A stretch of 64,000 nucleotides of DNA from Arenibacter latericius DSM 15913 (GTDB taxonomy: Bacteria > Bacteroidota > Bacteroidia > Flavobacteriales > Flavobacteriaceae), in NCBI RefSeq assembly GCF_000424985.1, contig NZ_AUKX01000005.1, forward strand, positions 1-64,000. Direction: 5' to 3'. The position numbers and the translations under genes are program-made. How positions within the stretch are numbered: position 1 is the first letter of the stretch; every line of letters starts with the position of its first letter. The notes under the pieces are model-generated. The model had not been told where the DNA came from and searched no databases. It saw only the letters and a list, made by a program, of their open reading frames with translations. Shown here in pieces: positions 7,091 to 29,315 of the stretch.

Positions 7091-10000
7091 TTACTTAGAT
7101 TCAAAGTCGGTTGGATTTATCAAGTCTGTTTTACCCTTATATTTTCCTGGGGTTACCCCATACTCCTTTTTAAAGGTTTTGGAAAAATACTTAGAGTCAT
7201 TAAAACCTACTAAGAAAGCAGTTTCAGACACAGAATAGTTACACTCGGCAAGCAAAACAGCGGCCTTTTTTAAGCGCATGGTTCTAACAAAATCTACAAT
7301 CTTTTTACCAGTTAAACTCTGGAATTTCCTGTAAATAGCAGAATAACTCATATTTAGCTTAGCGGAAAGATCTTCTAGCTTAAAGTCCGGATTACTAATT
7401 TCTTCTTCTATCAGGCCAACTAGTTTTTCCAAAAAGATCTCATCCTGAGATTTGTTAGGTCCACCCTTAGGCGTAGTAATTAAATCGTTTTTATACTTTA
7501 AAACCAATCGATCATTTTTGGTTACTATATTGTTTACTTTAAGAATTAATTCGTTTGTTTTAAACGGTTTCCCTATAAATTCTATAGCCCCTGCACGTAG
7601 CCCTTTTAATTTGCTCTGCTCTGTCTTTTTTGCTGTCAGCATTATAATGGGAATATGAGCCGTAGCCTCATTTTTCTGAAGCGCAGTACTCATCTCTATA
7701 CCATCCATTTTTGGCATCATCACATCCGTAATAATAATGTTTGGTTGATTCTCCATGGCCATCTGTAAGCCTTCTTCCCCATTTTCAGCCAAAACCACAT
7801 TATAATATCCCATAAAAAGATCGCGCAAGGATATTTGCAATTCATAGTTATCTTCAACTATAAGAATCGTTTTATTAAGTCTCTTTGGTTGCTCCTGTGA
7901 TTCTGCAATAATAAGGTCGTGGTTTTCCTTAGCTATTGGGAATTCCAATACTTCCAATTGATTTTCAGTTTCAGATGTAATTGCTTTTCCTTTTATTATA
8001 GGCAAATAAACGCTAAAGCAGGTACCTTCATCTAATTCCGATTTAACATCAATTTTTCCATCGTGTAATTCTACAAGCTCTTTAATTAATGCTAATCCTA
8101 TTCCTGTTCCTATCTTTTGTTTCCCAGAATCGGCCTGATAAAACAATTGAAAAATATTTTCCAATTCGTTTTTTGGAATACCTGGACCAGAATCGGCAAC
8201 ACTTATTTTTATCATCCGTTCTCCTTCTTTCTTTGCTTCTTCTACCTTAAACGAAATAGCACCCATTTTTGGGGTGAATTTAAAGGCGTTGGATAACAAA
8301 TTAAATACAATGTGTTCTAATTTATCCCTATCGTACCTCATTATCAAATCCTGCTTAGGATAACTACAATTATAATTGATTCCCTTAAATTTTGCCTGCT
8401 CATTAAAAGCACTAGCATATTCTTTTAAATCTTCTATAATATTATATTCTGTTGGGCGAAGCGTTAATTTATCCAATTCTTTATCTCTCAAAGAAGTGAG
8501 TTCAAAAACAATACGCGACAATCTTTTCGCATTATTTGATATTAACCGGAGTCGCTGTTGCAGCAATTCATTTCCACTATTTACGGCACGTGCCATCATA
8601 TCTTCTAATGGAATTAAAATCAGGGTTAATGGCGTTTGGATCTCATGTGACATTTTTGCAAAGAAATTCAGTTTCAAGGCATACAACTCCTTTTCATGAT
8701 GGTGTTGAAGCTCCTCTGCCTGTAAGCGATTTCTAAATTTAATCCACATAAATATACCATAAAGTATTCCTAAAGCGAGTAGAGCATAAAATAGATGTGC
8801 CCAACCCGTATTCCAAAAAGGTTCTGAAATATGAATAGCAACCGACTTTTGACCTATATCCCAATTTCCGGTCTTGGTTCCCGCCCTTACTTCAAAGGTA
8901 TAATCTCCAGGGGGAATATTAGTATAGGTAGCTAAACGTTCCTTCCCCGCAAAAATCCATGAATCATTAAAACCTTTCAGTCGGTAAGCATAATTATAGT
9001 TGGGAAAAAGAATATTGTCCATTGCCAAGAAGCGAAAGGAAAAAGAGGACTGATCATAGTTTAGTGACAATTGTTCAATATTCTCTATACCATCTTGTAG
9101 TTGTTCTGGAACGACCTCAATAGCAGGTTGGTTTAAAATCTCCATTCCCTCCATGAACAATTCAGCAGCGTACTGCTCCTTCTCCACCATTTCTGGCTTA
9201 AAATAGTTAACACCGTTTAAGCCTCCAAAATAAAAGTTTCCATCAATTCCTTTGTGTGCACTCCGTTGCATAAAGAAATCATTCTGTAGGCCGTCCCTTT
9301 CCTGATAAACCTTGGTAATGGAATCTGAAATGTTATAATGCCATAGACCTGTAGTAGAGCCCAACCATAAATTATCTTCATCGTTTTGTAGCACCGATCT
9401 AAATACAGGCGATTTAGGGGTCTTATCAAAATCATCATCAGTGGTATTTTGCAGATTCACCAGTTCAAATTCTTCCTTATAAATATCAAATTTCGCCAGT
9501 CGTCCATTAAATGATACTAACCAAATAGTCTTATCTCCAACGCAAGACATTGCCAAGATATCATTGTTTTTATTGGTTAATTCCTCCTCAGTCAATCGAG
9601 TATACCTTCTAAAAGTGGATCTAGAAATATCTGTCTTGTTTTCATTAAATTTAAACAAGCCACCCCCATTGGTGGCAACCCATATAGTCCCATTTGTATC
9701 TTCCACGAGACTTTGGGATATATTACCCACTAAACCATTAGAGTTATTCTTAAACTTCACCAAAAGGGTTTTACTGTCCAAATAAACAAACAAGCCCTGA
9801 TCCGTAGTTACCCACATTCTTTTCTTGGAATCCCGAAAAATAAATCGGACATCTTGTACACTATGTCCATCTACATCTATTAAAGGCTTTTTCTGGAAGC
9901 TTTTTTGCCTACTATTATATATGTGCAGCCCGTTCTGATAGGTCCCTACCCAAATATTATGATCCTCATCTTCATTTATAGAATGAATATAGTAGCCTTT

Positions 10001-11227
10001 ATCATTTAATGTATTCTCGAAAAATTGTTGACTAGGTCCTACAGGGGGCACCTTTGCAAGTCCTTCCCCATCGGTACCAATCCATAAAACCCCATCACTC
10101 GCCTTAAAGGAAGATAAAATACGTGCTGGTTTTAAACTAACTGTTCCTGGATGGTAATAAATATGATTATCCGATTTCCTTAGTACATTTATATTACCAT
10201 AATTGGTGAGCACCCAAAGATTGTTTCTTAAATCTTCATTAATATCAATCACGGTATTGGTACTTAAAGAAAACTTTTTTAAAATATTGTGCTTATAGGT
10301 GGTTAATTCTCCTGAAATAGGGTCTACTCTATACAGGCCGTTCCCATCCGTACCCAACCAAACAAAACCGTCCACATCACAATACATGGAAGTAAACAAT
10401 TCATTAATTTGCCCATAAGGCTGATCTTTAAAAAGGGCATTTTGAATAAAGGCTTCCTTTTTAAAATCGTAAACTAAAATTCCTAAGCTAACATAAGATG
10501 AGCCAATCCACAACCTATCTTGCTTGTCTAACATTAACAAAGTATTGTCGGACAAAGAATAATTATAAGGAAAATCTAATACCTCTGTATCTTTAGATTC
10601 TAGGTTATAGGTATAAATAGGCCCTTTATAGGTACTTAGAATTATCTGCTTAGATTTCCTAACCGCCATGGAACTTATGCCATATCTTCCATGCCCAGAA
10701 ATAGGAATACTAGTTATACTATCCATTGTACCATTGGCATGGTCATAAGAATACACTTCACCGGTTTTTGTAGCCATCCAAATTTTATCACCTTCAGGAT
10801 ACACTACTTCAATTGGGTAGTTCTCAACAAAGCCTTCTATATATTGATCTATAGACAAAAAGGTTCCATTCTTTTGTAAGAAGGAAAGGTCCCCATTTAG
10901 GGAAAGCGCCCATACAACAGCATTACCGTCCTTAAACACCGATTTTACTTCATCTGAGAAATTGGTATTATTAAAAATTTGATCTCTAGGAATGAATTCA
11001 AAATTATAACCATCGTATTTAGAAATTCCAAAGGCATGCGCCAACCAGATATACCCCATATTATCCTGAACTGAATGGGTCACCTTTACACTTTGGTTAT
11101 CTATATTAAAAGGTAAGCTAACAAAATTGGATGGGCTCTGTGAAAATAGTAATACCGCATTCAAATGCATTAACATCACTGCAAAACACCATCTCCAGTT
11201 CACCAACCTAAATTTCTTTTGCATCAT
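7091..11227 (-). CDS. hybrid two-component system sensor/regulator (HTCS)
   Basis: This 1378-aa one-protein signalling system is typical of Bacteroidota glycan loci. In order it has: a signal segment (about 1-30), two Reg_prop seven-bladed propellers (about 40-700, repeats such as VWLGTDGNGLYRVD), a Y_Y_Y domain (about 720-800), one transmembrane helix (about 805-827), HisKA with MSHEIQTPLT (phospho-His near 861), HATPase (DSGPGIP...GTGIGLAL), a receiver domain with ITDVMMPKMDG (phospho-Asp near 1168) and a C-terminal AraC HTH (about 1275-1365). It would sense an oligosaccharide in the periplasm and activate the locus. It is divergent from the GH109 gene across 216 bp, and the sulfatase cluster lies on its other side. 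The ligand is unknown. Confidence 0.95.
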   Translation of the reverse strand: MMQKKFRLVNWRWCFAVMLMHLNAVLLFSQSPSNFVSLPFNIDNQSVKVTHSVQDNMGYIWLAHAFGISKYDGYNFEFIPRDQIFNNTNFSDEVKSVFKDGNAVVWALSLNGDLSFLQKNGTFLSIDQYIEGFVENYPIEVVYPEGDKIWMATKTGEVYSYDHANGTMDSITSIPISGHGRYGISSMAVRKSKQIILSTYKGPIYTYNLESKDTEVLDFPYNYSLSDNTLLMLDKQDRLWIGSSYVSLGILVYDFKKEAFIQNALFKDQPYGQINELFTSMYCDVDGFVWLGTDGNGLYRVDPISGELTTYKHNILKKFSLSTNTVIDINEDLRNNLWVLTNYGNINVLRKSDNHIYYHPGTVSLKPARILSSFKASDGVLWIGTDGEGLAKVPPVGPSQQFFENTLNDKGYYIHSINEDEDHNIWVGTYQNGLHIYNSRQKSFQKKPLIDVDGHSVQDVRFIFRDSKKRMWVTTDQGLFVYLDSKTLLVKFKNNSNGLVGNISQSLVEDTNGTIWVATNGGGLFKFNENKTDISRSTFRRYTRLTEEELTNKNNDILAMSCVGDKTIWLVSFNGRLAKFDIYKEEFELVNLQNTTDDDFDKTPKSPVFRSVLQNDEDNLWLGSTTGLWHYNISDSITKVYQERDGLQNDFFMQRSAHKGIDGNFYFGGLNGVNYFKPEMVEKEQYAAELFMEGMEILNQPAIEVVPEQLQDGIENIEQLSLNYDQSSFSFRFLAMDNILFPNYNYAYRLKGFNDSWIFAGKERLATYTNIPPGDYTFEVRAGTKTGNWDIGQKSVAIHISEPFWNTGWAHLFYALLALGILYGIFMWIKFRNRLQAEELQHHHEKELYALKLNFFAKMSHEIQTPLTLILIPLEDMMARAVNSGNELLQQRLRLISNNAKRLSRIVFELTSLRDKELDKLTLRPTEYNIIEDLKEYASAFNEQAKFKGINYNCSYPKQDLIMRYDRDKLEHIVFNLLSNAFKFTPKMGAISFKVEEAKKEGERMIKISVADSGPGIPKNELENIFQLFYQADSGKQKIGTGIGLALIKELVELHDGKIDVKSELDEGTCFSVYLPIIKGKAITSETENQLEVLEFPIAKENHDLIIAESQEQPKRLNKTILIVEDNYELQISLRDLFMGYYNVVLAENGEEGLQMAMENQPNIIITDVMMPKMDGIEMSTALQKNEATAHIPIIMLTAKKTEQSKLKGLRAGAIEFIGKPFKTNELILKVNNIVTKNDRLVLKYKNDLITTPKGGPNKSQDEIFLEKLVGLIEEEISNPDFKLEDLSAKLNMSYSAIYRKFQSLTGKKIVDFVRTMRLKKAAVLLAECNYSVSETAFLVGFNDSKYFSKTFKKEYGVTPGKYKGKTDLINPTDFESK

Positions 11228-11443: not shown

Positions 11444-12808
11444 ATGAACCAGAGAAGAAACTTTATAAAAAAAACAGCCATTACCTCTGCTGGCATTGCC
11501 ATCTTACCTAATCTTTCTTTAGGTAATTCAGGAAGGAAAGCTGCGCAAAAATTAAAGGTAGGTGTTATAGGGGTAGGTTTAAGAGGTACTAATCATTTGG
11601 TAAACCTTTTAAAAAGAGACGATGTACTGGTAACTGCTATTTGTGATATAGATCAAAACAGAATAACTATAGCACAAAATCATATAGAAAAGGCAGGTCA
11701 AAAGAAAGCGAAAGCTTTTGGAAAAAATGATTTAGACTATAGGAACCTCCTGGCTTTGGAAGAAGTAGACGCGGTAGTAATAGCTACTCCATGGTTATGG
11801 CATACTAAAATGGCTGTAGATAGCATGAAAGCCGGGAAGTATACTGGTTTAGAAGTCTCTGCTGCTAACACTTTAGAAGAGTGTTGGGACTTAGTAAATA
11901 CCCATGAAGAAACTGGTAGTCATTTAATGCTACTAGAAAATGTAAACTATAGAAGAGACGTTTTAGCCGTATTAAATATGGTAAAACAAAATGTATTTGG
12001 AGAATTATTACACTTCCGCTGTGGTTATCAGCACGATTTAAGGGGTGTAAAATTCAATGATGGAAAAACTGCCTATGGCAAAGGTGCCGAATTTGGTGAA
12101 AAGGGAATCTCAGAATCCGCATGGCGTACCCAACATTCCTTACTTAGGAATGCAGATGTATATCCCACCCATGGTTTAGGACCAATAGCCGTTATGGCCG
12201 ATGTGAATAGAGGTAATAGATTGCTCTCATTAACCTCACACGCTACCAAAGGAGTTGGCCTTAACAAATATATAGTAGAGACAGGTGGTAAAGATCACCC
12301 CAATGCTAAATTAAAATTTAAGCAAGGAGATATTATTACCTCTACTGTTGAGACGGCAAATGGGGAGACCATTATTATAACACATAATGTAAACAACCCA
12401 CATCCTTACTCATTAGGATTTAAGGTACAGGGAGCACAAGGATTAACCGATTTTGATACCCATACCCAAAGAATACATATAGAAGGTGTTACGGAAGGCC
12501 ATGGCTGGGAAGATATGGACAAATGGTTTGAAAAGTACGACCACCCCTTATGGAAAAAGTATGGTGATGGTGCTACCGAAGCGGGTCATGGTGGAATTGA
12601 CTTTTTTGTGATAAATGCTTTTGTAGAATCTGCTAAAGAAAATATTGCTCCGCCTATGGATGCTTACGATGCCGCCGCATGGAGTGCAGTAACTCCACTT
12701 TCCGAACTTTCTATAGAAAACAATGGGGAACCCCAAGATTTTCCTGATTTCACTAGAGGAAATTGGATTAAGAGGAAACCGTACAACTGGATAAAGGATA
12801 CCTATTAG
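11444..12808 (+). CDS. GH109-type alpha-N-acetylgalactosaminidase (Tat-exported)
   Basis: This 454-aa Gfo/Idh/MocA-fold enzyme belongs to the NAD-dependent glycosidases that remove terminal alpha-GalNAc. A twin-arginine signal (NQRRNFIKKTAITSAGIAI) is followed by the NAD loop GVIGVGLRGTNH (about 39-50). Blocks characteristic of GH109 are present: ATPWLWH, NVNYRRDVLAVLNM, GYQHDLRGVKFN, EFGEKGISESAWRTQHS, YPTHGLGP and NNPHPYSLGFKVQGAQG. Length matches the family, whose members were first characterised as blood-group A-active enzymes. It is the first gene of the rightward cluster and is followed by a hairpin terminator. Folding with cofactor before export is consistent with Tat. The exact substrate, animal or algal, is not known. 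Confidence 0.88.
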   Translation: MNQRRNFIKKTAITSAGIAILPNLSLGNSGRKAAQKLKVGVIGVGLRGTNHLVNLLKRDDVLVTAICDIDQNRITIAQNHIEKAGQKKAKAFGKNDLDYRNLLALEEVDAVVIATPWLWHTKMAVDSMKAGKYTGLEVSAANTLEECWDLVNTHEETGSHLMLLENVNYRRDVLAVLNMVKQNVFGELLHFRCGYQHDLRGVKFNDGKTAYGKGAEFGEKGISESAWRTQHSLLRNADVYPTHGLGPIAVMADVNRGNRLLSLTSHATKGVGLNKYIVETGGKDHPNAKLKFKQGDIITSTVETANGETIIITHNVNNPHPYSLGFKVQGAQGLTDFDTHTQRIHIEGVTEGHGWEDMDKWFEKYDHPLWKKYGDGATEAGHGGIDFFVINAFVESAKENIAPPMDAYDAAAWSAVTPLSELSIENNGEPQDFPDFTRGNWIKRKPYNWIKDTY

Positions 12809-13026: not shown

Positions 13027-16000
13027 ATGAAACAAAGAGCTATTATTTATGAAAAGAGACCCTATTCGGTTTCTATTAAAAAGCGAAGGAGGTATGATCT
13101 TATACTTGCTTCCTTTTTAACCGCTTTATTCTTATTACCATTCAGCAATGCCTACGGTTCCGTTGTTGAGGCTAACGACGATATTAACGTAGCACAACAA
13201 ACCAGAACCATTACAGGAACTATTACCGATGAAAATGGAACCATTCTATTTGGAGTAAACGTAGTGGTTTTAGGTTCTACAAGAGGAGTTCAATCCAATT
13301 TTGATGGAGAGTATTCCATTAAAGCCAATGAAGGTGATATTTTAGAATTCTCTTACCTTGGTATGCAATCTAAAAGAATCACTGTTGCCGATAAAGACGT
13401 AATAAATGTAGTCTTGGCAGAAGATGCAGAGGCTTTAGATGAAGTTGTTCTTGTAAGTTTTGGTAAACAAAAGAAAGCCAGTGTTATTTCTTCTGTTTCT
13501 ACTATAAAGCCTGCCGATTTAAAAATACCTTCTAGTAACTTAACCACCGCATTAGCTGGTAATGTTGCGGGAATGATTGCTTACCAAAGAACTGGTGAGC
13601 CTGGAGCAGACAATGCCCAATTCTTTATTAGAGGGGTTACCTCTTTTGGTTATGGAAACAGCCCTTTAATTCTTATTGACGGGGTAGAATTAACCACTCA
13701 GGATTTAGCGCGTTTACAGCCAGATGACATTGCTTCTTTCTCCATTATGAAAGATGCAACTGCTACATCATTGTATGGTGCTCGTGGTGCTAACGGGGTA
13801 ATCTATGTTACTACCAAGGAAGGTGTTGAAGGTCCTGCTAGGATTAGCGCAAGATTTGAGACTACTATGTCCCAAGCTACTCAAAATATAGAGTTCGCAG
13901 ATCCTATTACCTATATGAGAATGCACAACGAGGCAATAAAAACCAGAGACCCTCTTGGAATATCTAGATACTCTTTAGAAAAGATAGATAAAACTATTGC
14001 TGGTGCAAATCCAATCCTTTACCCCGTAACAGATTGGCAAAAGGAATTATTTAAGGATTACACCATTAACAAACGTTTTAACTTCAGTATTAACGGAGGG
14101 GGTAAAGTAGCTCAGTACTACGTTTCTTTAGCTGCTAGCCAGGACAACGGAGTTTTAGATGTGCCAAAAGTTAATAACTTTAATAGTAATATTGACTATA
14201 AGCAATTTCAATTAAGGTCTAATACCAATATTGCTCTGTCTGAAACTACTAAATTAAAATTGAGTTTTATAGGTAACTATGATGACTACACAGGTCCTTT
14301 AGATTCTGGACAAACACTTTACAGAAAAGTTATGCAGAGTAACCCTGTGCTTTTTAGACCTTATTATGAAAAAGATGAATCCAACTCCTATGTAAATCAT
14401 ATTCTTTTTGGAAATTATGACAACGGGAATTATATAAACCCTTATGCTGATATGGTAAAAGGTTATAGAGAGTCTGGTTCTTCTAAAATAATTTCACAAG
14501 TTGAGTTAGAGCAAGACCTAAGTGGTTTAGTAGATGGATTAATGGGGAAAGTAATTGTGAACGCTAACAGGGAATCTGGAAATAGTGTAAATAGATCTTA
14601 TAGACCATTCTTCTACGAGCCTAGAATTAATCCTATTACCGGTAAACAGATCTTGACTCCTATGAATGAGGAAACAGGAACAGAGTATTTAGATTATAAT
14701 GAAACAGGAAAGTTTGTACTTTCTTCCTCGTATTTAGAATCTTCTTTAACCTACAACAAAGACATTACTGAAGACTATGACCTTTCTGGAATGTTAGTGT
14801 TTACTATGAACAACAGAAGAGTTTCTGGTGCCGGAAACCTACAAGCATCCTTGCCTTACAGAAACATGGGACTTGCAGGACGTTTTACTTTTTCTGCACA
14901 CGAAAAATATTTTGGAGAGTTTACTTTCGGTTACAATGGATCTGAACGTTTCCACAAAAAGGAGCGTTGGGGATTTTTCCCATCCGTAGCTGCCGGTTGG
15001 ATTGTATCTAATGAAGAGTTCTTTGAAGACTACACAGATGCTGTAAATTTACTGAAATTTAAAGCTACTTATGGTTTGGTGGGTAACGACCAAATAGGTA
15101 GTGCTTCCGATAGATTTTTCTATTTATCACAAGTAAACCTTAACGATAATAGGTATGGGTATACAACAGGAAGGGATTTTGATAATTTTACCCCTGGAGT
15201 TTCTATCCAAAGATATCCTAATGAAAATATCACTTGGGAAACAGCCACTAAGTTTAACTTAGGTATTGAACTAGGTCTTTTTAATCAATTTACATTGGAG
15301 GCAGATTATTTTACCGAGCACAGAACTAATATCCTAGCTAATAGGATTATTACTGCAAGTATGGGATTAGAGAGCAGCGTTAGAGCAAACATCGGTGAAG
15401 CTAAAAGTCGTGGTATTGATGGCTCTATAGTGTATAACAATAGTTTCAGTAATGGAATGTGGCTACAAGCAAGAGCTAACTTTACTTATTCTACTAATGA
15501 GATCACTAAAATTGAGGAGCCTGATTATACCGATACACCATGGCTTTCTCGTGTTGGGCAGCCTATAAACCAACAATGGGGTTATATAGCTGAACGTTTG
15601 TTTGTTGATGAAGAAGAAGTAAAAAACTCTCCCGTTCAAACTTTTGGTGAATATGCAGGAGGTGATATTAAATATAAGGATATTAATGGGGATGGAAGAA
15701 TTTCTGGATTAGATAGAGTGCCTATTGGAAACCCAACTTCACCAGAAATAGTTTACGGCTTTGGAGCTTCTGCAGGATATAAAGGTTTTGACATTTCTGC
15801 ATTCTTCCAAGGTTTAGGAAACGAATCCTTCTGGATAGACGCATGGAACACTGCTCCTTTTGTGGACGTATGGCCAGGTGGAGACGCAAACAACCAATTA
15901 TTAAAAGTTTGGGCAGACAGCTACTGGTCTGAAAACAACAGAGATATCTATGCAAAATGGCCAAGATTGTCTACCTCTAACATAGGTAATAACACCCAAA

Positions 16001-16239: not shown

Positions 16240-16249
16240 AAAATACATC

Positions 16250-18142: not shown

Positions 18143-18201
18143 AAATGAATTTTATAATTTAATATTATCATAACTAGATTTAGAACAAAATGTTAGATAC
18201 A

Positions 18202-18225
18202 GTGTCCCGAAAAATTTCGGGACAC
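18202..18225 (+). other. intergenic stem-loop between SusD and the next gene
   Basis: GTGTCCCGAAA-AA-TTTCGGGACAC is a perfect 11-bp inverted repeat in the 116-bp gap. It is followed by an ACAACAACAACA run and not by T, so it is unlikely to be a simple terminator. An mRNA processing or stability element, or partial attenuation giving more SusCD than downstream proteins, is plausible. Confidence 0.65.
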
Positions 18226-18258
18226 TTAACAACAACAACAACATTAAATTACAAACAG

Positions 18259-19455: not shown

Positions 19456-19571
19456 AATGCTTTTAACTGAAATGTGACTTATTTCTCAAATTCTCCACCG
19501 ATTTACATTGGAGTGAAACGATAAGGATGCCACATTTCAATAGAGCGAAAAAATCAAATACATTTAAACAG

Positions 19572-20990
19572 ATGAAAACAATATATAATACCATTAAATT
19601 GTTTCTCCTTTTGGTTTCCGGGGCATTTATATCTTGCCAGGACATGAACGAGGTTCATGAAGAATATATCAAAGACGGAGAAATTATATATACCAACAAG
19701 GTAGATTCCGTTTCTACTTTTGGAGGGGAAAACCGAGTGATGATTAAAGGTTATATCACAGGAGCGTTTAACGTTAGTGAAATATTAGTGACGTGGAACA
19801 AGGGAGAAAACGAACAAGTTTTTCCTTACACCAAATCTGATCAGGACACAGACCCTTTAGAGCTAATAGTTACCGATTTAGAAGAAAATAGCTATGAGTT
19901 TAAAATAGTTAGTAGAGACACAGACGGTAATGTTTCTATACCCGCCACGGGTTTTGGAACTGCCTATGGGGAAAGATACCGAGCTAATTTGGAAGCTAGA
20001 ACAGTTAACCATATAACTTTTGATGGTGAAAACTTAGAAGTGGTAATGGCGATTGGAAGCGAACTCCAAAGAGGAACTGAGTTTAAATATACCAACACTA
20101 ATAATGAGGAGGTAGTTGCAACAATCCTTAGAGAAGAAAACATAATTCTTTTAGAAAATGCTGATATAGACCAGCCTATTACTTACCGTACATTTTATGT
20201 GCCAACGGCAGCTAGGGATGATGTGGAAACAGCAATTGATGAATTTGACTCTGATTGGCTAACACTTACGCTTCCTCAAATTGGAGATATACTTAACAAT
20301 ATAGCTTTTGAATCCGTTTTAGGTGGTCTTAAGATGCAATGGACCAACCCAGATGCTGCAGCATTAGTCTTTACAGTTGAATATACTGTAAATGGCGAAG
20401 TAAAAACTCAAAAAGTTACTTCTTCTGATGTTGAAGGAGAAGCTATTATTTCTGGAATGGATGAAGGGGAGCAGATTGTAAGCGTTAGCGTTGCAGATCC
20501 TTATGGAAACTCTTTTGGACCAAATGATTTTACTGTAACTCCGACAGCTGCTCAAAAGCTAGACAAATCTGGTTGGACTATAGTAGATTTTTCAACTGAG
20601 GAACCTAACGAAGGAGCACCCAATGGATTAGCTACTGCTATCATAGATGATGATTTAAGCACCTTCTGGCATTCCAAATGGGCTGGTGGCACACCTCCCT
20701 ATCCGCATCATATAACGGTAGATATGGGTGCTGAGAAGACTGTAGCAAGTTTTGAGGCTTTCAGAAGACAAGGAAATGGACAAGGACAAACTAAACATCA
20801 GTTCTTAGTGAGTATTGATGGTGAAACTTGGACAGATTTAGGTACGTTCGATATGGATCCTAGCACTAATGACGGGCAAGTATTTGCTTTTAGCGATATT
20901 GCTACTGCCAGATATTTTAAATATGTTGCCTTGGAAGGTCCTAATGCTTATGCCTTCTTGGCTGAAATCAATGTTTATGGTTTAGAGTAG
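19572..20990 (+). CDS. surface lipoprotein with DUF4998 and discoidin (F5/8 type C) domains
   Basis: This 472-aa lipoprotein has the signal FLLLVSGAFISC (Cys23), a DUF4998-like region (about 25-225), an Fn3-like middle part and a C-terminal discoidin/CBM32-like domain (about 335-472) with DLSTFWHSKWAGG, ITVDMGAEK and ARYFKYVALEGPN. Such domains commonly bind galactose or GalNAc-type sugars. The ATG at 19572 (context AAACAGATGAAAA, like the previous gene) is preferred to 19527, which lacks a signal at the N-terminus. It follows the DUF4959 gene by 116 bp, and a terminator lies 31 bp after the stop, closing the SusCD operon. Confidence 0.85.
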   Translation: MKTIYNTIKLFLLLVSGAFISCQDMNEVHEEYIKDGEIIYTNKVDSVSTFGGENRVMIKGYITGAFNVSEILVTWNKGENEQVFPYTKSDQDTDPLELIVTDLEENSYEFKIVSRDTDGNVSIPATGFGTAYGERYRANLEARTVNHITFDGENLEVVMAIGSELQRGTEFKYTNTNNEEVVATILREENIILLENADIDQPITYRTFYVPTAARDDVETAIDEFDSDWLTLTLPQIGDILNNIAFESVLGGLKMQWTNPDAAALVFTVEYTVNGEVKTQKVTSSDVEGEAIISGMDEGEQIVSVSVADPYGNSFGPNDFTVTPTAAQKLDKSGWTIVDFSTEEPNEGAPNGLATAIIDDDLSTFWHSKWAGGTPPYPHHITVDMGAEKTVASFEAFRRQGNGQGQTKHQFLVSIDGETWTDLGTFDMDPSTNDGQVFAFSDIATARYFKYVALEGPNAYAFLAEINVYGLE

Positions 20991-21167: not shown

Positions 21168-21620
21168 ATGAAAAACATATTTATTTTACTATTACTAGTT
21201 TCTTTATCGGCCCCAATAACGGCACAGATAAAAGAAACTCATATCCCTATCTCCAATACCTTAGTAGGTATCTGGAAACAGACTGGGATAACAAATCCCA
21301 ACACCGGGAAGCTTACAGAAGTACAAACTGGTAATTACAAAGTAATGAACCCAGATGGCACCTATTATACATTTATAACCTGGGGTACTGGGAATCCAAC
21401 AAACGATACTACCATTGCACAGTATGGGAATTATGAAATTACTTCTGAAAATCTTATTGCAGAGGAAATAGTTGGACATACTATGGACCCTAGATTAAAT
21501 GGAAAAAACAGCACCATAAAATTCGAGTTGGTGGACAGTAATACATTACTGATGTCTTGGAGTCCAAATGATATTGATTGGATAGATGAAAAATGGACAC
21601 GGTTACCATTGTCACTTTAA
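21168..21620 (+). CDS. secreted lipocalin-like protein (DUF4488-like)
   Basis: This 150-aa protein has a signal peptide ending at APITAQ (about residue 20), then a small beta-barrel-like domain. LVGIWKQTG near the start and DEKWTRL at the end are typical of Bacteroidota lipocalin-like/DUF4488 proteins. TGNYKVMNPDGTYYTF and YGNYEITSENLI suggest consecutive strands. No catalytic residues are recognised. It begins the segment 21168-26868 and is followed after 32 bp by the large T9SS protein, so the two are probably co-transcribed. The family assignment is moderate. Confidence 0.65.
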   Translation: MKNIFILLLLVSLSAPITAQIKETHIPISNTLVGIWKQTGITNPNTGKLTEVQTGNYKVMNPDGTYYTFITWGTGNPTNDTTIAQYGNYEITSENLIAEEIVGHTMDPRLNGKNSTIKFELVDSNTLLMSWSPNDIDWIDEKWTRLPLSL

Positions 21621-21652
21621 TAACCAACCAAACACAAAATATTATACTCAAG

Positions 21653-24600
21653 ATGAATAACCATATTTTAAAGCGTATCACAAAATGGATCCCAATACTA
21701 GCATTCCTTGCTCATATTGGAGAGGCCAAAGCACAATTTCCCATCACCCCCTATGATGAATTGCCCGGTATTATAATTACCTATAAGCCAAATTATCAAG
21801 AATCTTTTCCGGACTGGGCCAAAAAACTGTATCAATACCCTGTTAACTACAAAGAGATAGAAGCTGGCTACAACGCATATAAAGCTACGGATCCCGGCAA
21901 GACACCCATTGAACGGTATTATAAAATTTGGAGACGAGTTGTTGCCAACCATGTGCTCTCTGACGGAACCATTGCCCTACCCGGGAAGAAACAAGCTTCA
22001 TTGGTGAAAAAGGGTGGTACCCTTACCCTAAAAGGAAGCGATACCTCTAATGCAAATTGGAGTTTTCTTGGACCTAGAAATACCTATTGGCTAAACGAAG
22101 CCAATCATCCCGAGATTCCTGAAATAGCACCATGGCAAGTAAACGTGTATTCCGTAGCAGTGGCCAAATCTAACCCTAATATTATTTATGTAGGAACCGA
22201 GACTGGATTTGTTAACAAATCCACGAATAAGGGGCAAAGTTGGACGCTAATGGCTCCGGATTATTTATTTTTATCAGGAGTTACGAGTATAGCAGTACAT
22301 CCCACCAACCATCATATTGTTTACGCGGCTGCTTCAAGACAGGTACATAAGTCATTGGACGGAGGGGAATCCTGGACACCAATTCTTAATACCGAATTAT
22401 CTGTAAACCATATTGTAATTGATGAGACAAATCCGAACAAAATTTTTATTTCATCGGATAAAGGAATTCACCTTAGCACTGATGCAGGCACTACTTGGAA
22501 CCAAAAGGTATCTAAGACAGCTTACGACCTTCAAATAATGCCGGGGAACGCTAACAATATTTTTGCGTTGACTAAAAACGGAACGGGGAATTTTGAAATA
22601 CATTCGTCTTCTGATGGTGGCATTAGTTTCACTAAAATGGACAGCTTTCCAACCGGACTTGTGGATCATTCAGGAGGATTATTGGCCATGTCCGCTGCCA
22701 ACACCAATGTCCTATATAGCACCATGCTTAGTATTGACTCTCCCTTATTGTATAAAGGAATATATAACGCGGGCACTTGGACTTGGACGGAAATCATTGA
22801 ATGTGACACCCCAGCCTTTCCCTACAATAACGGTCAAGGTTATTACGATCTAGTTCTAGAAGTATCGCCTAATAACGAAAATGTATTTATGGTGGGTACT
22901 ACTACCTTATTTAAAACTAACGACGGTGGAAATTCTTTTGATGCCATTGGTGGTTACTTTGGGCGATTTAGCATCCATCCAGATATCCAAGATATCTATT
23001 GGATGCCAGATGATACCGTATATGTTGCCACGGATGGCGGTTTAAGCTTTTCCAACGATGCCTTTGAGACGGATTTCCATCCCTTAATCAATGGAATGGT
23101 TGGGTCTGACATGTGGGGTTTTGATCAGGGATGGAATGAGGATATCGTAGTTGGAGGACGCTACCATAACGGGAATACCGCGATGGCCGACTTTTACGGG
23201 CACAAGGCCCTAAGAATGGGTGGTGCAGAGTCCCCTACAGGATGGGTCTTACAAGGAAAAAGCAGGCATGTAGCTTTTAATGATTTGGGCCAAGGATGGA
23301 TACTTCCCAAAACCGCCGAAGGAGCCCCGGAAGGTAGATTCCACTTTAATAAATACCCAAATATGTTAGAGTATGGGGGTAATAGAGGGAGTTTAGTTCA
23401 TCATCCCAACTACCACGAAATTCTGTATATGGGAGAAGGCAATACGATTTGGGTGAGCAATGATATGGGAGTCAACTTCACAGCCCTTAAAACCTTTACG
23501 GATTTGGTCATGGAAGTAGAAGTGAGCTTTATAAATCCTAAGGTAATGTATGTAGATGTAAGAGGAAATGGCTTATATAGAAGTGAGGATGGCGGACAAA
23601 CTTGGGTGCGAAAACCATCGCTTACAAGCTCCGAATTTGGGGGAAGTGGGATGAACGGCAGAATCAGTATGGTTGTATCCCCGTATGACGAAAATACCAT
23701 ATACGCTACGTATGCCAATGGAACCTGGACCTCCAACAAAGGGAAAGTATTTAAATCTACCGATGGAGGTGATAATTGGGAAGACATTTCGGGTAGTGTG
23801 AATGCCAACACAAAGGTCTTGGTAATCCAACCAAGTTCTACGGGAGAAGAGCTTGTATACCTAGTAACTACCAGAGGATGGGGAGCTCCGTCTAAAATTT
23901 ATTACAGAACCCCATCCATGACAGATTGGGCATTATTTTCTAATAATTTCCCAGATAACTTTAGCGTAAATACAGCCTTGCCCTTTTATAGAGATGCAAA
24001 AATTAGAGTGGCAGGGGGAGCCGGCGTATGGGAAAGTTTCCTTCAAGACCAGGATTTTGAACCCGTTCTTAACCCCTGGGTAGAAAAGGGACTAAGTAAC
24101 TGTATGCTAGATACCCTTAACTTTGATGACCACTCCATGTTAAAACACGAAGGGGCCAGCTGGCAATGGGAAATTACCCCCCAACCTAGTTATATTAGTG
24201 ATCCCAATATCCGAAATCCTAAGGTAGTCTTAGGACAACCAGGGTCCTACGATGTAACGATGACTGTTACCCAAAATGGTAAAGTATATTCCAAGACCAT
24301 TGAAAAAATGGTAACGACTACTACTTGTCCGTCCATTACAGACTGTAGCAATCCTGCTTCCCTCCCTAAGGATGAATGGACCCTCTTATACGTCAACAGC
24401 GAGGAAACCAATCAGGGTGGACATGCCTCCAACGCTTTTGATGGCGACCCCAATACCATATGGCATTCCCGATGGAGCACTGGCACAGATCCCTATCCGC
24501 ATGAATTGCAAATAGATTTAGGCAACTTCTACAGTTTAAGTAGGTTTACCTATCAACCACGTATCCATGGCTCCAATGGTCGAATCAAGGAATATCAGCT

Positions 24601-25678
24601 TTATATCAGTTTGGATAATACCAATTGGGGAGAACCTGTGCACACAGGGGAATGGCCCAACAGCTCTAGTCCGCAGCACATTAATTTTGAAGAACCTATA
24701 AAGGGTCGCTATTTTAGGATCGTTGCTCTTTCCGAGGTTAACAATCAAGCTTTTGCCTCTATAGGAGAGTTAGATTTTATAGGGTGTGTTGCAGATAACT
24801 GCCCTGGCATAGACAACCCCGACCAAGCAGATTTTGATGAAGATGGAATTGGAGATGTTTGTGATGAGGACGATGACAACGATGTTGTATTGGATGAAGA
24901 CGACCATTGCCCCGAAACCCCTCTAGGTGCTATTGTAGATGCAAATGGCTGTACAAAGTTTTCGCTGCCGGCTTCAAATTTTACCGTAGAAGTCTTCGCA
25001 GAAACCTGTAGGAGTAGCGACAATGGAAAGGTAGCTATAAGCGCTAAGACTGTAATGGACTACCAAGTTTCCCTGGAAGGGACGAACTATAATACCACTC
25101 ATAGTTTTTCGGAAACTCTAGAAATTGCAGATCTTAAATCAGGAACCTATAAGCTATGCTTTACAGTAAACGGAGAGCCAGATTTTGAGCGTTGTTACGA
25201 TATTTCCATTAGTCAACCACAGGATATCGCCGTCATGTCATATTACGATCCAAGCACCAAGTCTTTATCATTAAAAATGTACAATGGAACCAGTTACAAG
25301 GTAACCATAAATGACAAGGTATGGGAGACCTCGGAAAACGAGTTGACACTCCCCTTAGAAAACGGGATCAATAAAATTGGCGTGACCACTGAAAAGGATT
25401 GTCAGGGGATATTTGAAAAGCAAATTATGCTAGAGAACCAAATCCTCGTATACCCTAATCCAGTAGAGGACTTCCTCTACTTAAACCTTGGTGAAGACAA
25501 CTCTAATTTAGTGTTGCTAGAAATTTTCGATCAAAGTGGGAAGCTAACATTATCTAGAACCCTTGTAGTGAACAACCGTACTGCACAGCTTGAAGTAGGA
25601 TTTATTTACAGTGGTATTTATGCGGCTCGGTTAACTACCCAGGAGGGAAAACACAACTTTAAAATAATTAAAAAATGA
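21653..25678 (+). CDS. T9SS-exported Asp-box propeller protein with PKD, discoidin and TSP3 domains
   Basis: This 1341-aa secreted protein has a signal peptide (ITKWIPILAFLAHIGEAKA), then a VPS10/sortilin-, GH74- or sialidase-like propeller (about 110-800) with at least eight Asp-box repeats, e.g. SLDGGESWTP, STDAGTTWNQ, SEDGGQTWVR and STDGGDNWED. A PKD-like domain (about 810-890), a discoidin/CBM32-like domain (about 900-1035, NTIWHSRWSTG) and a TSP type-3 calcium repeat (DFDEDGIGDVCDEDDDND) follow. The C-terminus (ILVYPNPVEDFLYLNL...IIKK) is a type A T9SS sorting domain. No sialidase RIP motif was found, so activity is open: hydrolase or glycan-binding adhesin. ATG 21653 gives the signal and avoids overlap with the preceding gene. 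The stop overlaps the next ATG (ATGA). Confidence 0.85.
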   Translation: MNNHILKRITKWIPILAFLAHIGEAKAQFPITPYDELPGIIITYKPNYQESFPDWAKKLYQYPVNYKEIEAGYNAYKATDPGKTPIERYYKIWRRVVANHVLSDGTIALPGKKQASLVKKGGTLTLKGSDTSNANWSFLGPRNTYWLNEANHPEIPEIAPWQVNVYSVAVAKSNPNIIYVGTETGFVNKSTNKGQSWTLMAPDYLFLSGVTSIAVHPTNHHIVYAAASRQVHKSLDGGESWTPILNTELSVNHIVIDETNPNKIFISSDKGIHLSTDAGTTWNQKVSKTAYDLQIMPGNANNIFALTKNGTGNFEIHSSSDGGISFTKMDSFPTGLVDHSGGLLAMSAANTNVLYSTMLSIDSPLLYKGIYNAGTWTWTEIIECDTPAFPYNNGQGYYDLVLEVSPNNENVFMVGTTTLFKTNDGGNSFDAIGGYFGRFSIHPDIQDIYWMPDDTVYVATDGGLSFSNDAFETDFHPLINGMVGSDMWGFDQGWNEDIVVGGRYHNGNTAMADFYGHKALRMGGAESPTGWVLQGKSRHVAFNDLGQGWILPKTAEGAPEGRFHFNKYPNMLEYGGNRGSLVHHPNYHEILYMGEGNTIWVSNDMGVNFTALKTFTDLVMEVEVSFINPKVMYVDVRGNGLYRSEDGGQTWVRKPSLTSSEFGGSGMNGRISMVVSPYDENTIYATYANGTWTSNKGKVFKSTDGGDNWEDISGSVNANTKVLVIQPSSTGEELVYLVTTRGWGAPSKIYYRTPSMTDWALFSNNFPDNFSVNTALPFYRDAKIRVAGGAGVWESFLQDQDFEPVLNPWVEKGLSNCMLDTLNFDDHSMLKHEGASWQWEITPQPSYISDPNIRNPKVVLGQPGSYDVTMTVTQNGKVYSKTIEKMVTTTTCPSITDCSNPASLPKDEWTLLYVNSEETNQGGHASNAFDGDPNTIWHSRWSTGTDPYPHELQIDLGNFYSLSRFTYQPRIHGSNGRIKEYQLYISLDNTNWGEPVHTGEWPNSSSPQHINFEEPIKGRYFRIVALSEVNNQAFASIGELDFIGCVADNCPGIDNPDQADFDEDGIGDVCDEDDDNDVVLDEDDHCPETPLGAIVDANGCTKFSLPASNFTVEVFAETCRSSDNGKVAISAKTVMDYQVSLEGTNYNTTHSFSETLEIADLKSGTYKLCFTVNGEPDFERCYDISISQPQDIAVMSYYDPSTKSLSLKMYNGTSYKVTINDKVWETSENELTLPLENGINKIGVTTEKDCQGIFEKQIMLENQILVYPNPVEDFLYLNLGEDNSNLVLLEIFDQSGKLTLSRTLVVNNRTAQLEVGFIYSGIYAARLTTQEGKHNFKIIKK

Positions 25679-26373
25679 AACGTTTTATATTAGCATCATG
25701 TATACTGTTCTCCGTCCTTTCTTGTAGTAAGGGCGGAGACACTCCAAAGGAAGAGGAAAATTTAGATCCTACTGCGGCTAGCCTTGTTTTTCCATTAAAC
25801 AATTCTGAATGTATAGAGGGCGTCATAAAAAGTAAATCTAAAAGTACCGTTACCTTTAAATGGGAAGCTACTCTAAATACAGACGGTTACGAGTTAAAAT
25901 TGAAAAACCTCTCAACAGGGGTTAGCATCGGTTATAACACCTCTAATAGCGAAATCCCCATAGAACTAGAAAGAGGCGTAGCGTATTCTTGGTATGTTAT
26001 ATCCAAAAACAACATTTCTGGAGAAAAAGCGGAAAGTAAGGTTTGGAAATTTTACAACGCCAGTGAGTCCTCATCGTCCTATGCCCCTTTTCCGGCCGAG
26101 GTGGTAGCTCCAGAAATTAATGTAGAGCTTCCTTACTCGGAAAATGGAATTACTTTGGAATGGTCTGCCAGCGACGTAGACAATGATATTAATGCTTATG
26201 ATGTTTATTTTGGTGTTGGTAAAAATCCAAAATTATATAAGGAGAATGTGTCCCTTAATAAGCTAGAAAATGTAGCGGTACAAATGGAAACTATGTACTA
26301 TTGGAAAGTTATTACCATAGATTCTAAAGGGAATACTTCTACCTCCGACCTTTTTCAGTTTAAGGTTAAATAG
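25675..26373 (+). CDS. Fn3-like surface lipoprotein
   Basis: This 232-aa lipoprotein has the signal ILASCILFSVLSC (Cys17) and a charged linker, then two fibronectin type III-like units (about 35-125 and 140-232). In each, a TFKWEA / LEWSASD strand is followed by YSWYVISK / YYWKVITID, the usual Fn3 pattern of Bacteroidota SusE-like proteins. No enzymatic motif is present. It is translationally coupled to the upstream T9SS propeller gene through a 4-bp ATGA overlap, which suggests that the two act together at the cell surface. Confidence 0.75.
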   Translation: MKRFILASCILFSVLSCSKGGDTPKEEENLDPTAASLVFPLNNSECIEGVIKSKSKSTVTFKWEATLNTDGYELKLKNLSTGVSIGYNTSNSEIPIELERGVAYSWYVISKNNISGEKAESKVWKFYNASESSSSYAPFPAEVVAPEINVELPYSENGITLEWSASDVDNDINAYDVYFGVGKNPKLYKENVSLNKLENVAVQMETMYYWKVITIDSKGNTSTSDLFQFKVK

Positions 26374-26427: not shown

Positions 26428-26868
26428 ATGGAAAAACAACAATCCTTTAACATGAATGTACCCTTTATAGAAGGATATGATGTGTTTTTTGTAAAACTAG
26501 TACTTAGTATCTTCATATTCTGTGCACTCCTTTCAATCATGAATTTTCTGCGAGACAAATTCATCCATAAAACTGCTAATCCTAGAAAAGAAGAATTTAC
26601 CACACTCTTAATCGTTCTCAACAAATTGTTCTACATAGCCGGATTTGGTTTTGTGATAGCAAATATTATTAGTGTACTATTTTCCGAAATAAGACGGAAT
26701 TCAAATTTCCCTAACCTTAGAGTTGGAGGAGAATGGGACTATCTTGTTTTTGGTATTATTCTAATATTTATTGGAATAGCATTAAAATCAAGTAGAAAGG
26801 TGATAAAAAAGGAAAGTTCATTATCTAACAATATAGATGAGACACCCTCACCAACTATAAAAAAGTAG
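26428..26868 (+). CDS. small membrane protein of unknown function
   Basis: This 146-aa protein has three predicted membrane helices: about 21-41 (FFVKLVLSIFIFCALLSIMN), about 60-84 (LLIVLNKLFYIAGFGFVIAN) and about 105-122 (YLVFGIILIFIGIALKS). A lysine-rich C-terminus follows (KVIKKESS...PTIKK), probably cytoplasmic. The family is not recognised. It lies 54 bp after the Fn3 lipoprotein and before a strong hairpin, so it is probably the last gene of that transcript. Its role in the locus is unknown. Confidence 0.65.
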   Translation: MEKQQSFNMNVPFIEGYDVFFVKLVLSIFIFCALLSIMNFLRDKFIHKTANPRKEEFTTLLIVLNKLFYIAGFGFVIANIISVLFSEIRRNSNFPNLRVGGEWDYLVFGIILIFIGIALKSSRKVIKKESSLSNNIDETPSPTIKK

Positions 26869-26929
26869 ACGATTCTAGGGTATTTAATCATCCTCCAGAT
26901 TTAGAGCATTGTACGGTTACAGTAATCAA

Positions 26930-27098: not shown

Positions 27099-29315
27099 AT
27101 GAAACCCAAACTATTAATATTATTATTAACCTTTTTCCTTTTTTCTGTAGGATGTTCAGAAAAAGACAACCCAGTGATTTTACCAGACGAAGAGGGTGGA
27201 ACTGTTACCCAAAAAGATCCTGATTACTATGCCCCCGCTAGTGTTAGTAGCATAGATAAGGATGCACAAATAACTCCTAGTTCAGCATCTGCTAGTGAGC
27301 ATCAAAATGGAACGGATATAGATAAGACCTTAGACGGAGATAAAGGAACAAATTATCATAGCAGATGGGGAAACCAAACAGAATACCCGGTTGACTTAAT
27401 ATATGATTTTGAAAAGGATATAGACGAAATAGATTATTTTGTGCTATATCCTAGAAGTGATGGGAATAATAACGGGGCCATCCTACAGCTAACTATTTAT
27501 ACTAAAACTCAAGGAGAAAGTGAGTTTGTAAAGTTTAATGAGTACGAGTTCAATAATGGAATGACACCAAAGATTATAAGCTTTCCCGAAGGTTTTAAAA
27601 ACCCAGAATCTATTAAACTATCCGTTACAAAAGGAATTAATGATTTTGTAAGCTTAGCAGAAATAGAGTTTTATAAAAAAAGTGCTGCTTTAGAAGCTAG
27701 TCTTGGTGTTTTTAGCGACAAAGCCTGTACCCAATTAAAACCTGGCGTGACTAAAGACGATATTTTGGCAATTGAAAATGTCTTTATTAAAACCATGGCA
27801 CTTGCTATCTTCAACAACGTTTATGACGAATTTAGAATAGGTGACTTTAAAAGTTATCCAGACCCGGGGATAATTGCTAAAACAAACAAAACAAGCACCT
27901 ACGGCATTTATGATAATGTTACTGGTATTTACGTTAAACGAGGAAGTGAAATGGTTGTTTTCATGGACGACTTTGAAGGAGAAATATCCCTAAGTGTTGT
28001 TAATCATAATGAAGGCTTTGGGGGTGTAGATTATGTAATGCAGCCCGGGCTTAACCGCTTTAAAGTAAATACTGAAGGACTTGCTTATTTAATGTATCAA
28101 GATGAAAATGAATACCAAGTTAGAGCCAACTTCGCCACTGGTACAATAAACGGATATTTTGATGTAGCCAAGCATACCAATGATGACTGGAAAGATCTAA
28201 TTACTAATGCAGAATATAGTTATTTTGATGTTCTGGGTGAATTTGCACATTTATCTTTTACTACAGACGACCTTCGTCAACATACTACTGATATTATAGA
28301 ACTAATTGGTCTCTATGATGATATAGTTGATTTAGAACAAGACTTTTTAGGCCTATACAAATATAATAGAGCTAATAAGACCCGCATGTATTTTAGAACC
28401 AACACCCATCAGGATATGTATATGTATGCAACTTCCTATAGAACGGAGTATAGTAAAGGTACCATGCCTGCACTCTGTAATCCTAGTACCCTAAAAGCTT
28501 CTCCATGGGGACCTGCACATGAGGTTGGGCATGTAAACCAAACAAGACCTGGTTTAAGATGGTTGGGTATGACCGAGGTTTCTAATAACATTTATAGCCT
28601 TTATGTACAAACCACATGGGGTAATGAGGCTAGAATTGACGCAGAGCAGCTTAATCCGTATAACAACCGTTACGAAAAGGCTTTTACAGAAATTTTAGCT
28701 AATAATCTTCCGCATGGTGAGCATGGGGATGTATTCTGTAAACTAGTACCCTTTTGGCAATTACAACTATATTTCTCCAATGTATTGGGTAATGAAGATT
28801 TTTATAAAGACGTACACGAAAGAATTAGAGTAAGCGACAATCCATCTTCTCATGGGGCTGCTCAGGTTGAGTTTGCTAAAATATGTTCTGATATTGCAGA
28901 AACAGATTTAACAGAGTTCTTTATAGACTGGGGATTTCTTAAAGCAGTTAATGCAGACTTAGATGATTACGGACAGGGAACAATAAACGTTACACAATCC
29001 ATGGTAGACGATGCCATATCCTATATTAAAAGTAAAGGCTATCCAGAACCTGAGATGAAATTGCAGTTTTTACACGAGCAAAGTTTAAACACATTTAAAA
29101 ATAAAGGTGCTCTTAGTGTAGGGAAAGCATATGTATCTAATACAAAAGTTACTATTTCTGGAACAAATAACGCTGCCGTTTATCAACAAGAGCGAGATGG
29201 TAATATTATTTATATATCGCCAAGAGCTACTTTTACAGTTGCCAATTTTGAATCCAATGACAAAATATTTGCAGTTGGCTATGACGGGGAGCGTATAGAA
29301 TTGTCCGTAAATTAA
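27099..29315 (+). CDS. M60-family (mucinase-type) metallopeptidase with discoidin domain, lipoprotein
   Basis: This 738-aa lipoprotein (LLLTFFLFSVGC, Cys19) has a discoidin-like domain (about 55-195, GTNYHSRWGN) and a peptidase M60 domain (about 215-620). The zinc motif HEVGH is at residues 474-478, with the distal Glu493 (GMTEVSNN), fitting HExxHx(8,28)E of M60/enhancin-type proteases. Family members cleave mucin-like O-glycoproteins, usually aided by a carbohydrate-binding module as here. Beside a GH109 GalNAc-ase this suggests an O-GalNAc glycoprotein target, which is inference. The C-terminus (about 650-738) is a small beta domain. The terminator lies about 60 bp after the stop. Confidence 0.9.
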   Translation: MKPKLLILLLTFFLFSVGCSEKDNPVILPDEEGGTVTQKDPDYYAPASVSSIDKDAQITPSSASASEHQNGTDIDKTLDGDKGTNYHSRWGNQTEYPVDLIYDFEKDIDEIDYFVLYPRSDGNNNGAILQLTIYTKTQGESEFVKFNEYEFNNGMTPKIISFPEGFKNPESIKLSVTKGINDFVSLAEIEFYKKSAALEASLGVFSDKACTQLKPGVTKDDILAIENVFIKTMALAIFNNVYDEFRIGDFKSYPDPGIIAKTNKTSTYGIYDNVTGIYVKRGSEMVVFMDDFEGEISLSVVNHNEGFGGVDYVMQPGLNRFKVNTEGLAYLMYQDENEYQVRANFATGTINGYFDVAKHTNDDWKDLITNAEYSYFDVLGEFAHLSFTTDDLRQHTTDIIELIGLYDDIVDLEQDFLGLYKYNRANKTRMYFRTNTHQDMYMYATSYRTEYSKGTMPALCNPSTLKASPWGPAHEVGHVNQTRPGLRWLGMTEVSNNIYSLYVQTTWGNEARIDAEQLNPYNNRYEKAFTEILANNLPHGEHGDVFCKLVPFWQLQLYFSNVLGNEDFYKDVHERIRVSDNPSSHGAAQVEFAKICSDIAETDLTEFFIDWGFLKAVNADLDDYGQGTINVTQSMVDDAISYIKSKGYPEPEMKLQFLHEQSLNTFKNKGALSVGKAYVSNTKVTISGTNNAAVYQQERDGNIIYISPRATFTVANFESNDKIFAVGYDGERIELSVN

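Follow-up and report, generated by a model that had tools for sequence, protein, structure and literature searches.

A predicted GalNAc-glycan utilization locus combining a fixed gene hub with an exchangeable slot in Arenibacter latericius

Results

Gene layout of the locus

The window analysed here is a stretch of 64,000 nucleotides from Arenibacter latericius DSM 15913, and its left part carries a locus for which we propose a role in the use of glycans containing N-acetylgalactosamine (GalNAc). The Pfam scan took in 30 of the 32 listed open reading frames (ORFs) of at least 120 amino acids (aa); the short ORFs 23410-23811 and 35801-36184 and a SusC-like frame running off the right end (61572-63998) were left out. 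On the minus strand, from left to right, lie genes for a sulfatase maturase of the formylglycine-generating enzyme (FGE) type with a lipoprotein-like start (958-2130; PF03781, E 9e-77), an M28 peptidase (2285-3271; PF04389, E 6e-46), an S1 sulfatase close to BT1622 with the Cys-type active site CAPAR (3749-5326; PF00884, E 7e-58), a DUF5077/DUF3472 protein (5449-6831; PF11958, E 2e-109; PDB 4qhw, E 1e-113) and a hybrid two-component system (HTCS) sensor-regulator (7091-11227), in which Pfam finds Reg_prop, Y_Y_Y, HisKA, HATPase_c, Response_reg and HTH_18. Divergent from the HTCS gene, and 216 bases away from it, begins the plus-strand series: a predicted GH109 alpha-N-acetylgalactosaminidase (alpha-GalNAcase; 11444-12808; PF21252, E 4e-79; PF01408, E 8e-12), SusC1 (13027-16239), SusD1 (16214-18142; PF07980, E 3e-56), two candidate surface lipoproteins (18190-19455 and 19527-20990), a DUF4488 protein (21168-21620; PF14869, E 2e-18), an Asp-box propeller (21593-25678), an fn3-type lipoprotein (25675-26373), a small membrane-type protein with no Pfam match (26428-26868) and an M60 lipoprotein of O-glycopeptidase type (27099-29315). 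By their ORF coordinates, the gaps from GH109 to M60 are all at most 230 bases, which suits a single operon and does not prove it. After a gap of 461 bases comes a second SusC/SusD pair (29777-34509; SusC2 29777-32788, SusD2 32800-34509), probably a separate unit, and then a convergent gene for a Gfo/Idh-type protein with a signal for twin-arginine translocation (Tat; 34783-36129, minus strand). The Bacteroidota promoter motif TTG-17/23-TANNTTTG occurs in none of ten intergenic gaps and eight times across the whole window, both strands counted.

A sequence-only reading of this DNA had described one linked block of HTCS, GH109, SusC/SusD, discoidin surface proteins, a propeller secreted by the type IX secretion system (T9SS) and an M60 peptidase, with a sulfatase and its maturase next door, and had called it a probable locus for degrading mucin-like glycoproteins. 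The Pfam domains of HTCS, GH109 and SusC/SusD are all present as claimed. The propeller has Sortilin-Vps10/BNR repeats, a discoidin domain (5e-29), TSP_3 and a T9SS tail (3e-10), and the M60 protein has a discoidin domain, the catalytic domain (PF13402, E 2e-43) and an M60 C-terminal domain, with the zinc site HEVGH at residues 474-478 and a distal Glu493. Of the two surface proteins, the one at 19527-20990 (DUF4998-DUF5126-discoidin, CBM32-like) does carry a discoidin domain above the cut-off (F5_F8_type_C, 2e-17); in the other, a candidate glycan-binding protein of DUF4959-DUF5126-DUF5000 architecture, the discoidin match is sub-threshold. The sulfatase and maturase are both real and near, but they lie on the opposite strand and are transcribed away from the GH109 block, with the M28 gene between them and the DUF3472 gene between sulfatase and HTCS. 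The DUF4488 protein, the fn3 lipoprotein, the small protein and the second SusC/SusD pair had been left unnamed.

Predicted activities of the GH109 enzyme, the M60 peptidase and the sulfatase

The window GH109 matches PDB 2ixa, a solved alpha-GalNAcase presumably from Elizabethkingia, with an E value of 3e-144 and 160 identical residues among 308 compared. Seven positions of the 2ixa chain that we take to be active-site residues (E149, Y179, H181, R213, Y225, H228 and Y307) are all conserved. The N-terminus, MNQRRNFIKK, is a Tat-type signal, which would be in keeping with an enzyme that takes up its NAD intracellularly. On these grounds the window GH109 would release terminal alpha-GalNAc. Could it instead be an oxidoreductase-type enzyme of another specificity, in a general sugar locus? 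The Gfo/Idh/MocA fold would allow it, and NCBIfam returns dehydrogenase matches; these are weak and below the cut-off, against a far stronger match to 2ixa, in which all seven positions tested are retained. Arenibacter strains also show alpha-GalNAcase activity, although this may come from the other GH109 paralog: the activity is described as ranking second in all strains studied, 16 of which are tabulated, but by the tabulated numbers it ranks lower in KMM 6685 (PMC3721217). We consider an oxidoreductase very improbable. The alpha-GalNAcase characterised from A. latericius has the published N-terminus GAKYMGGFSAPKLDT (PMC3721217, PMC4410403), and this sequence occurs in a second GH109 elsewhere in the genome (G000:C12). 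The characterised enzyme is thus a paralog, not the window GH109.

The catalytic part of the M60 protein is closest to known O-glycopeptidases. The six highest-ranking PDB rows are O-glycopeptidases of B. caccae, BcM60C, K, F and B, with one row carrying no name; BcM60C (E 7e-114) and BcM60K (E 1e-109) lead, and AM0627 (7yx8, 2e-65) and the sequence of BT4244 (5kd8, 7e-45) come after these six. Trp470, Asn497 and Arg512 stand at the spacings of AM0627 Trp321, Asn347 and Arg362, and the same pattern is found in the homologues from Gelidibacter, two Salegentibacter and one further Arenibacter genome (G003). In AM0627 and BT4244 these residues hold GalNAc, touching its acetamide and O3 (PMC9325726), and BcM60C and BcM60K cleave Tn and core-1 glycopeptides (PMC13355702). 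The window M60, whose start (FSVGCSEKD) is lipoprotein-like, is predicted to cut peptide bonds beside Ser or Thr bearing O-GalNAc. The genome also holds a second, shorter M60 of 531-532 aa (G000:C17; L017:15125-16720), with relatives at L002:11780-13378 and L003:12386-13984 and in L023, L024 and L025; in the window's genome it lies near an ORF that by eye resembles a transposase. Between Arenibacter and Salegentibacter it is 80-84% identical, compared with 64% for the window M60, which suggests that it was transferred.

For the sulfatase, the nearest PDB chain is 7ana (E 1e-176; 261 of 473 aligned residues identical, 55%). Among solved structures it is closer to BT1622 than to BT1636 (E 1e-176 versus 4e-101). 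The window sulfatase and BT1622 both have FNGG where BT1636 has EEGG, with Phe in both at BT1636 chain position 334; the Glu of BT1636 at that position we take to be a ligand of galactose O2. The maturase, two genes away, has a C-x4-C in GGSFLCNASYCASYR, presumably the spacing of an active FGE. A Cys-type sulfatase and an FGE-type maturase make a coherent pair. The structures 7ANA and 7ANB are those of BT1622 (PMC10154620), an S1_20 enzyme with a preference for 3-O-sulfated GalNAc (3S-GalNAc) (PMC10154612, PMC13383068, PMC10154620). By this similarity the window sulfatase should strip 3-O-sulfate from GalNAc. Predicted structures of the sulfatase and of the DUF3472 protein are too poor for use (mean predicted local distance difference test, pLDDT, 30 and 38). 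An open-ended ORF at the left edge of the window (3-203), which looks by eye like the end of a transposase, adjoins the FGE gene.

A fixed hub and a variable slot in Arenibacter

To the window locus we compared its counterparts in the genus. Eighteen genomes of the genus were searched and 15 loci, that of the window (genome G000) included, were compared. FGE, M28, sulfatase, DUF3472, HTCS and GH109 stand in constant order in all 15; in the 14 other loci GH109 is 88-96% and the maturase 77-92% identical to the window proteins. The Gfo/Idh gene closes the right side in 14 loci; for G015 the sequence covered ended short of that flank. Between GH109 and Gfo/Idh lies a slot in which at least five different cassettes, each headed by SusC/D, can be told apart: one with fasciclin and DUF5007 proteins (8 loci), the SusC1/D1 type (cassette B, 3 loci), SusC2/D2 (cassette C, 3 loci, the sole cassette in G009), SusC/D with another sulfatase (2) and SusC/D with an FG-GAP protein (2). 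Two kinds occupy the slot at once in G000, G007 and G015. The cassette edges are clean in DNA alignments. The alignment of G003 to the window is interrupted only by two missing blocks inside the slot, propeller plus fn3 and SusC2/D2, and that of G007 leaves the window just after GH109 and resumes inside M60. The sequence-only reading had treated the genes as a single linked block; HTCS, GH109 and sulfatase are fixed, but SusC/D, the surface proteins, the propeller and M60 belong to the variable slot. The notion that the HTCS sensor changes with the cassette was ruled out: the most similar sensor (89%) is that of G007, with another cassette, and that of G003, with the same cassette type, is 79% identical, so sensor identity tracks the flanking genes and not the cassette.

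Some genomes depart from this layout. Several copies of GH109 are present in G008 and in G012, some of them truncated where contigs end; the order there is GH109, SusC2/D2, second GH109, Gfo/Idh, MGH1, the left flank being outside view; elsewhere in G012 a sulfatase (68%) directly follows a GH109. G010 has no hub-type GH109 (best match 39%). In these three genomes the SusC1/D1-propeller cassette is found on contigs of 20-105 kb for which the genome searches list neither a hub-type GH109 nor an M60 domain, and in G008 and G012 it adjoins another HTCS. The slot SusC of G005 (L062/L061) reads as two ORFs, one of 224 aa and one of 745 aa. It resembles SusC2 over its first 217 residues (52%) and SusC1 over the remainder (only 27%), which points to a broken or mosaic gene.

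These data bear on whether the genes from HTCS to M60 all serve one substrate, as a dedicated mucin O-glycoprotein locus like BT4240-50 of Bacteroides would. Such a locus acts as a unit in Bacteroides (PMC11992087), the locus of G003 is colinear and includes M60, and Gelidibacter salicanalis unites HTCS and GH109 with a discoidin surface protein, M60, DUF3472 and a SusC/D that differs from that of the window. Yet 12 of the 15 Arenibacter loci have the hub without M60, the propeller cassette travels without M60 and GH109, and neither a galactosidase able to uncap core 1 (GH2 included) nor a GalNAc kinase was found among the 30 scanned ORFs. A dedicated mucin locus is, in our judgement, unlikely.

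The propeller is an optional unit, missing from the otherwise colinear G003 locus. A reading of it as a GH33 sialidase was rejected, as its matches to sialidase structures are confined to the discoidin domain (residues 923-1063); BNR_2 has 12 matches in the window's genome. The small protein at 26428-26868 is kept beside M60 or the propeller, and a DUF4488 protein is also found near M60 in L003. The fn3 lipoproteins at window 25675-26373 and at L018:9869-10561 are homologous and each lies directly 3' of a large T9SS-tailed protein, the propeller in the window and a sialidase-like protein at G000:C17 (1eut, E 1e-60); the fn3 lipoprotein may serve T9SS cargo as a partner or as an anchor. The sialidase-like protein lies about 14 kb from the second M60, a link we do not claim, as the intervening ORFs look unrelated by eye. 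A protein with SprB repeats (2824 aa, CHU_C type IX secretion tail) is encoded at window 49390-57864.

Occurrence outside the genus

The sequence-only reading had pointed to other Bacteroidota as a place to look for the same gene order. In Gelidibacter salicanalis (L001), HTCS is divergent from GH109-SusC/D-discoidin surface protein-M60-DUF3472; another GH109 is present as well. In G030, HTCS is divergent from GH109-SusC/D-M60 fragment-DUF3472. This fragment (L027:10096-10407, from residue 635) and one at L004:10013-10765 (from residue 485) keep only the C-terminal part of M60, each in the corresponding position of its locus; apparently they arose independently of each other, the peptidase being lost and GH109 kept. 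In Arenibacter, in Gelidibacter and in G030 the DUF3472 protein accompanies GH109/M60 loci, and in the last two its gene adjoins that of M60 or of the M60 fragment; it is a candidate enzyme or binder for GalNAc glycans, and the PDB entry that it matches, 4qhw, is annotated 'uncharacterized protein'. Two Salegentibacter loci have SusC/D-surface protein-M60 and a second M60, with no GH109 in the flanks covered; L003 also has GH2 and a partial sulfatase. In another family, G640 has HTCS divergent from GH109 (83%)-SusC/D-unassigned protein-sulfatase (62%), together with a weakly propeller-like protein (23%).

Among 395 sampled genomes of the window's class, 12 have M60, 69 have GH109 (one of them scoring under the curated cut-off) and 8 have both. 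GH109 is present in 8 of the 12 M60 genomes and in 61 of the 383 others (Fisher p 2e-4). At the level of the order, 8 of 296 sampled genomes have M60. With a threshold of E 1e-100, a sulfatase of the window type is found in 27 of the 395 (at most three candidates per genome scored, four for the control), and 25 of these 27 also have GH109 (p 5e-19). The two genes are within 10 kb in four genomes (G000, G131, G640 and G620), or 4 of 58 pairs; uniform placement predicts 0.22, but as glycan genes tend to cluster this null is lenient. The constant theme of the locus is the sulfatase with GH109.

These frequencies may also be read as those of a hub for a non-protein glycan, an algal or bacterial polysaccharide with alpha-GalNAc, in which M60 is a recent passenger of the slot. 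The hub is fixed and M60 patchy, M60 is rarer in the class than GH109, and slot types D and E, which bring in an additional sulfatase, FG-GAP proteins and proteins of arylsulfotransferase type, suggest other substrates. Counting against a polysaccharide are the M28 peptidase in the hub, the pairing of M60 with GH109 in Gelidibacter and, with only an M60 fragment left, in G030, and the enrichment of GH109 among M60 genomes. We regard a non-protein target for the hub, with M60 as a passenger, as unlikely.

Discussion

With moderate confidence, we favour a GalNAc-glycan utilization locus, a variant of the BT4240-50 type, in which a fixed hub adjoins an exchangeable slot that here holds an O-glycopeptidase. 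The hub probably targets 3-O-sulfated alpha-GalNAc, and the likely target in the window species is sulfated or plain Tn- or core-1-like O-glycoproteins of marine animals. From the gene content, the active-site residues, the fixed and variable parts and the co-occurrence described above, we infer activities, an order of steps, regulation and a substrate as follows. The surface M60 would nick O-glycoproteins next to Ser or Thr bearing GalNAc, and SusC/D with the surface binders would take up the glycopeptides. The sulfatase, with its FGE maturase, may first remove the 3-O-sulfate from GalNAc, after which the Tat-exported, NAD-dependent GH109 would free terminal alpha-GalNAc and the M28 peptidase would trim the peptide. 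GalNAc could be fed into metabolism by a kinase encoded elsewhere. APH-type genes occur in the genome only at G000:C8 and C10; the C8 gene is NahK-like (4ocu, an N-acetylhexosamine 1-kinase, E 2e-51) and adjoins an ORF that looks by eye like a nucleotidyltransferase. Its role would match that of BT4240, which channels GalNAc into metabolism (PMC11992087). Species without M60 would supply the same hub from other carriers. The glycoprotein assignment of the sequence-only reading thus stands in part: GH109, M60 and sulfatase look GalNAc-directed at the residue level and the sulfatase co-occurs with GH109, but a single dedicated mucin unit is not supported.

Several observations weigh against this interpretation. 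In the M60 protein, AM0627 Asp318 is not matched (Ala stands at position -3 from the Trp), the equivalent of Tyr288 was not placed, and the NCBIfam match, to the ImpA family, is far below the cut-off (21 bits versus 250). By whole-genome search, M60 is intact in only two of the 15 Arenibacter loci (G000 and G003), a fragment in G007 (from residue 485) and absent from 12, and in the class sample it lies within 20 kb of GH109 in only two of the 12 M60 genomes (G000 and G465). The lack of a galactosidase among the 30 scanned ORFs counts here too. The sulfatase of G131 lies among other sulfatases, beside a different GH109 subtype (34% identical), and the partners in G620 are more distant (GH109 50%, sulfatase 46%). 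The null used for gene distances is lenient and the surveyed genomes are not independent. A control S1 sulfatase taken from G015, searched at the same threshold, is present in 9 of the 395 genomes, 5 of them with GH109; the association is therefore partly that of a general glycan-degrading lifestyle. No genome has this control within 10 kb of GH109, and the difference between 25 of 27 and 5 of 9 gives a Fisher p of 0.02 with a small control, so a specific association of sulfatase and GH109 is supported, not overwhelmingly. As for the substrates, the available text of PMC3721217 reports no glycoprotein tests, and according to a review 3-O-sulfo-GalNAc is unidentified in biological samples (PMC10154612).

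More tentatively, the hub-and-slot locus suggests a possible generalisation, that across Bacteroidota the 3S-GalNAc branch of S1_20 works with GH109 on 3-O-sulfated alpha-GalNAc (sulfo-Tn or sulfated termini), the sensor and the two enzymes forming a constant hub and SusC/D cassettes, with or without an O-glycopeptidase, choosing the carrier. The same review describes the biological substrate of BT1622 as unidentified and suggests O3-sulfated Tn antigen (PMC10154612). If the generalisation is true, 3-O-sulfated alpha-GalNAc, so far unreported in biological samples, would occur in marine animals or algae. The tie of the sulfatase to an alpha-GalNAcase, by locus and by class-wide association, makes the question of the BT1622 substrate directly testable and indicates marine sources. 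A fixed hub with swappable cassettes also offers a natural experiment: does the substrate range depend on SusC/D or on the sensor?

Comparison with known systems

No description of the hub or slot was found among the titles and abstract openings listed from a collection of open-licence literature; we do not claim that it is absent from print. The gene combination itself is less new than the sequence-only reading held in calling it an inference, as the Bacteroides locus BT4240-50 joins GH109, M60, SusC/D and a CBM32 surface protein (PMC11992087). Its two operons are known in combination, to the authors of that work, only in three Bacteroides species (PMC11992087). B. thetaiotaomicron BT4240-50 shares with the window locus GH109, an M60 surface lipoprotein, SusC/D and the CBM32 surface protein (PMC11992087). 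It is controlled by an extracytoplasmic function (ECF) sigma/anti-sigma pair, whereas the window locus has an HTCS and no sigma factor among the 30 scanned ORFs. In further contrast to BT4240-50, no GH2 galactosidase, kinase or inner-membrane sugar transporter was found in the window locus, which adds a BT1622-like sulfatase, FGE, M28 and DUF3472, and its cassettes vary between species. BcM60C and BcM60K of Bacteroides caccae are the nearest solved relatives of the M60 catalytic part, the HExGH motif and the downstream region aligning (PMC13355702); the window protein is marine flavobacterial and has an N-terminal discoidin domain. The alpha-GalNAcase characterised from A. latericius is also a GH109 (PMC4410403, PMC3721217), while the window enzyme is of the 2ixa type. 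BT1622 is a Ser-type sulfatase; that of the window is Cys-type, with an FGE gene nearby and a fixed place near GH109. What is already known, then, is the combination of GH109, M60, SusC/D and CBM32, and what is unexpected is the hub-and-slot layout and the tie of 3S-GalNAc-type sulfatases to GH109.

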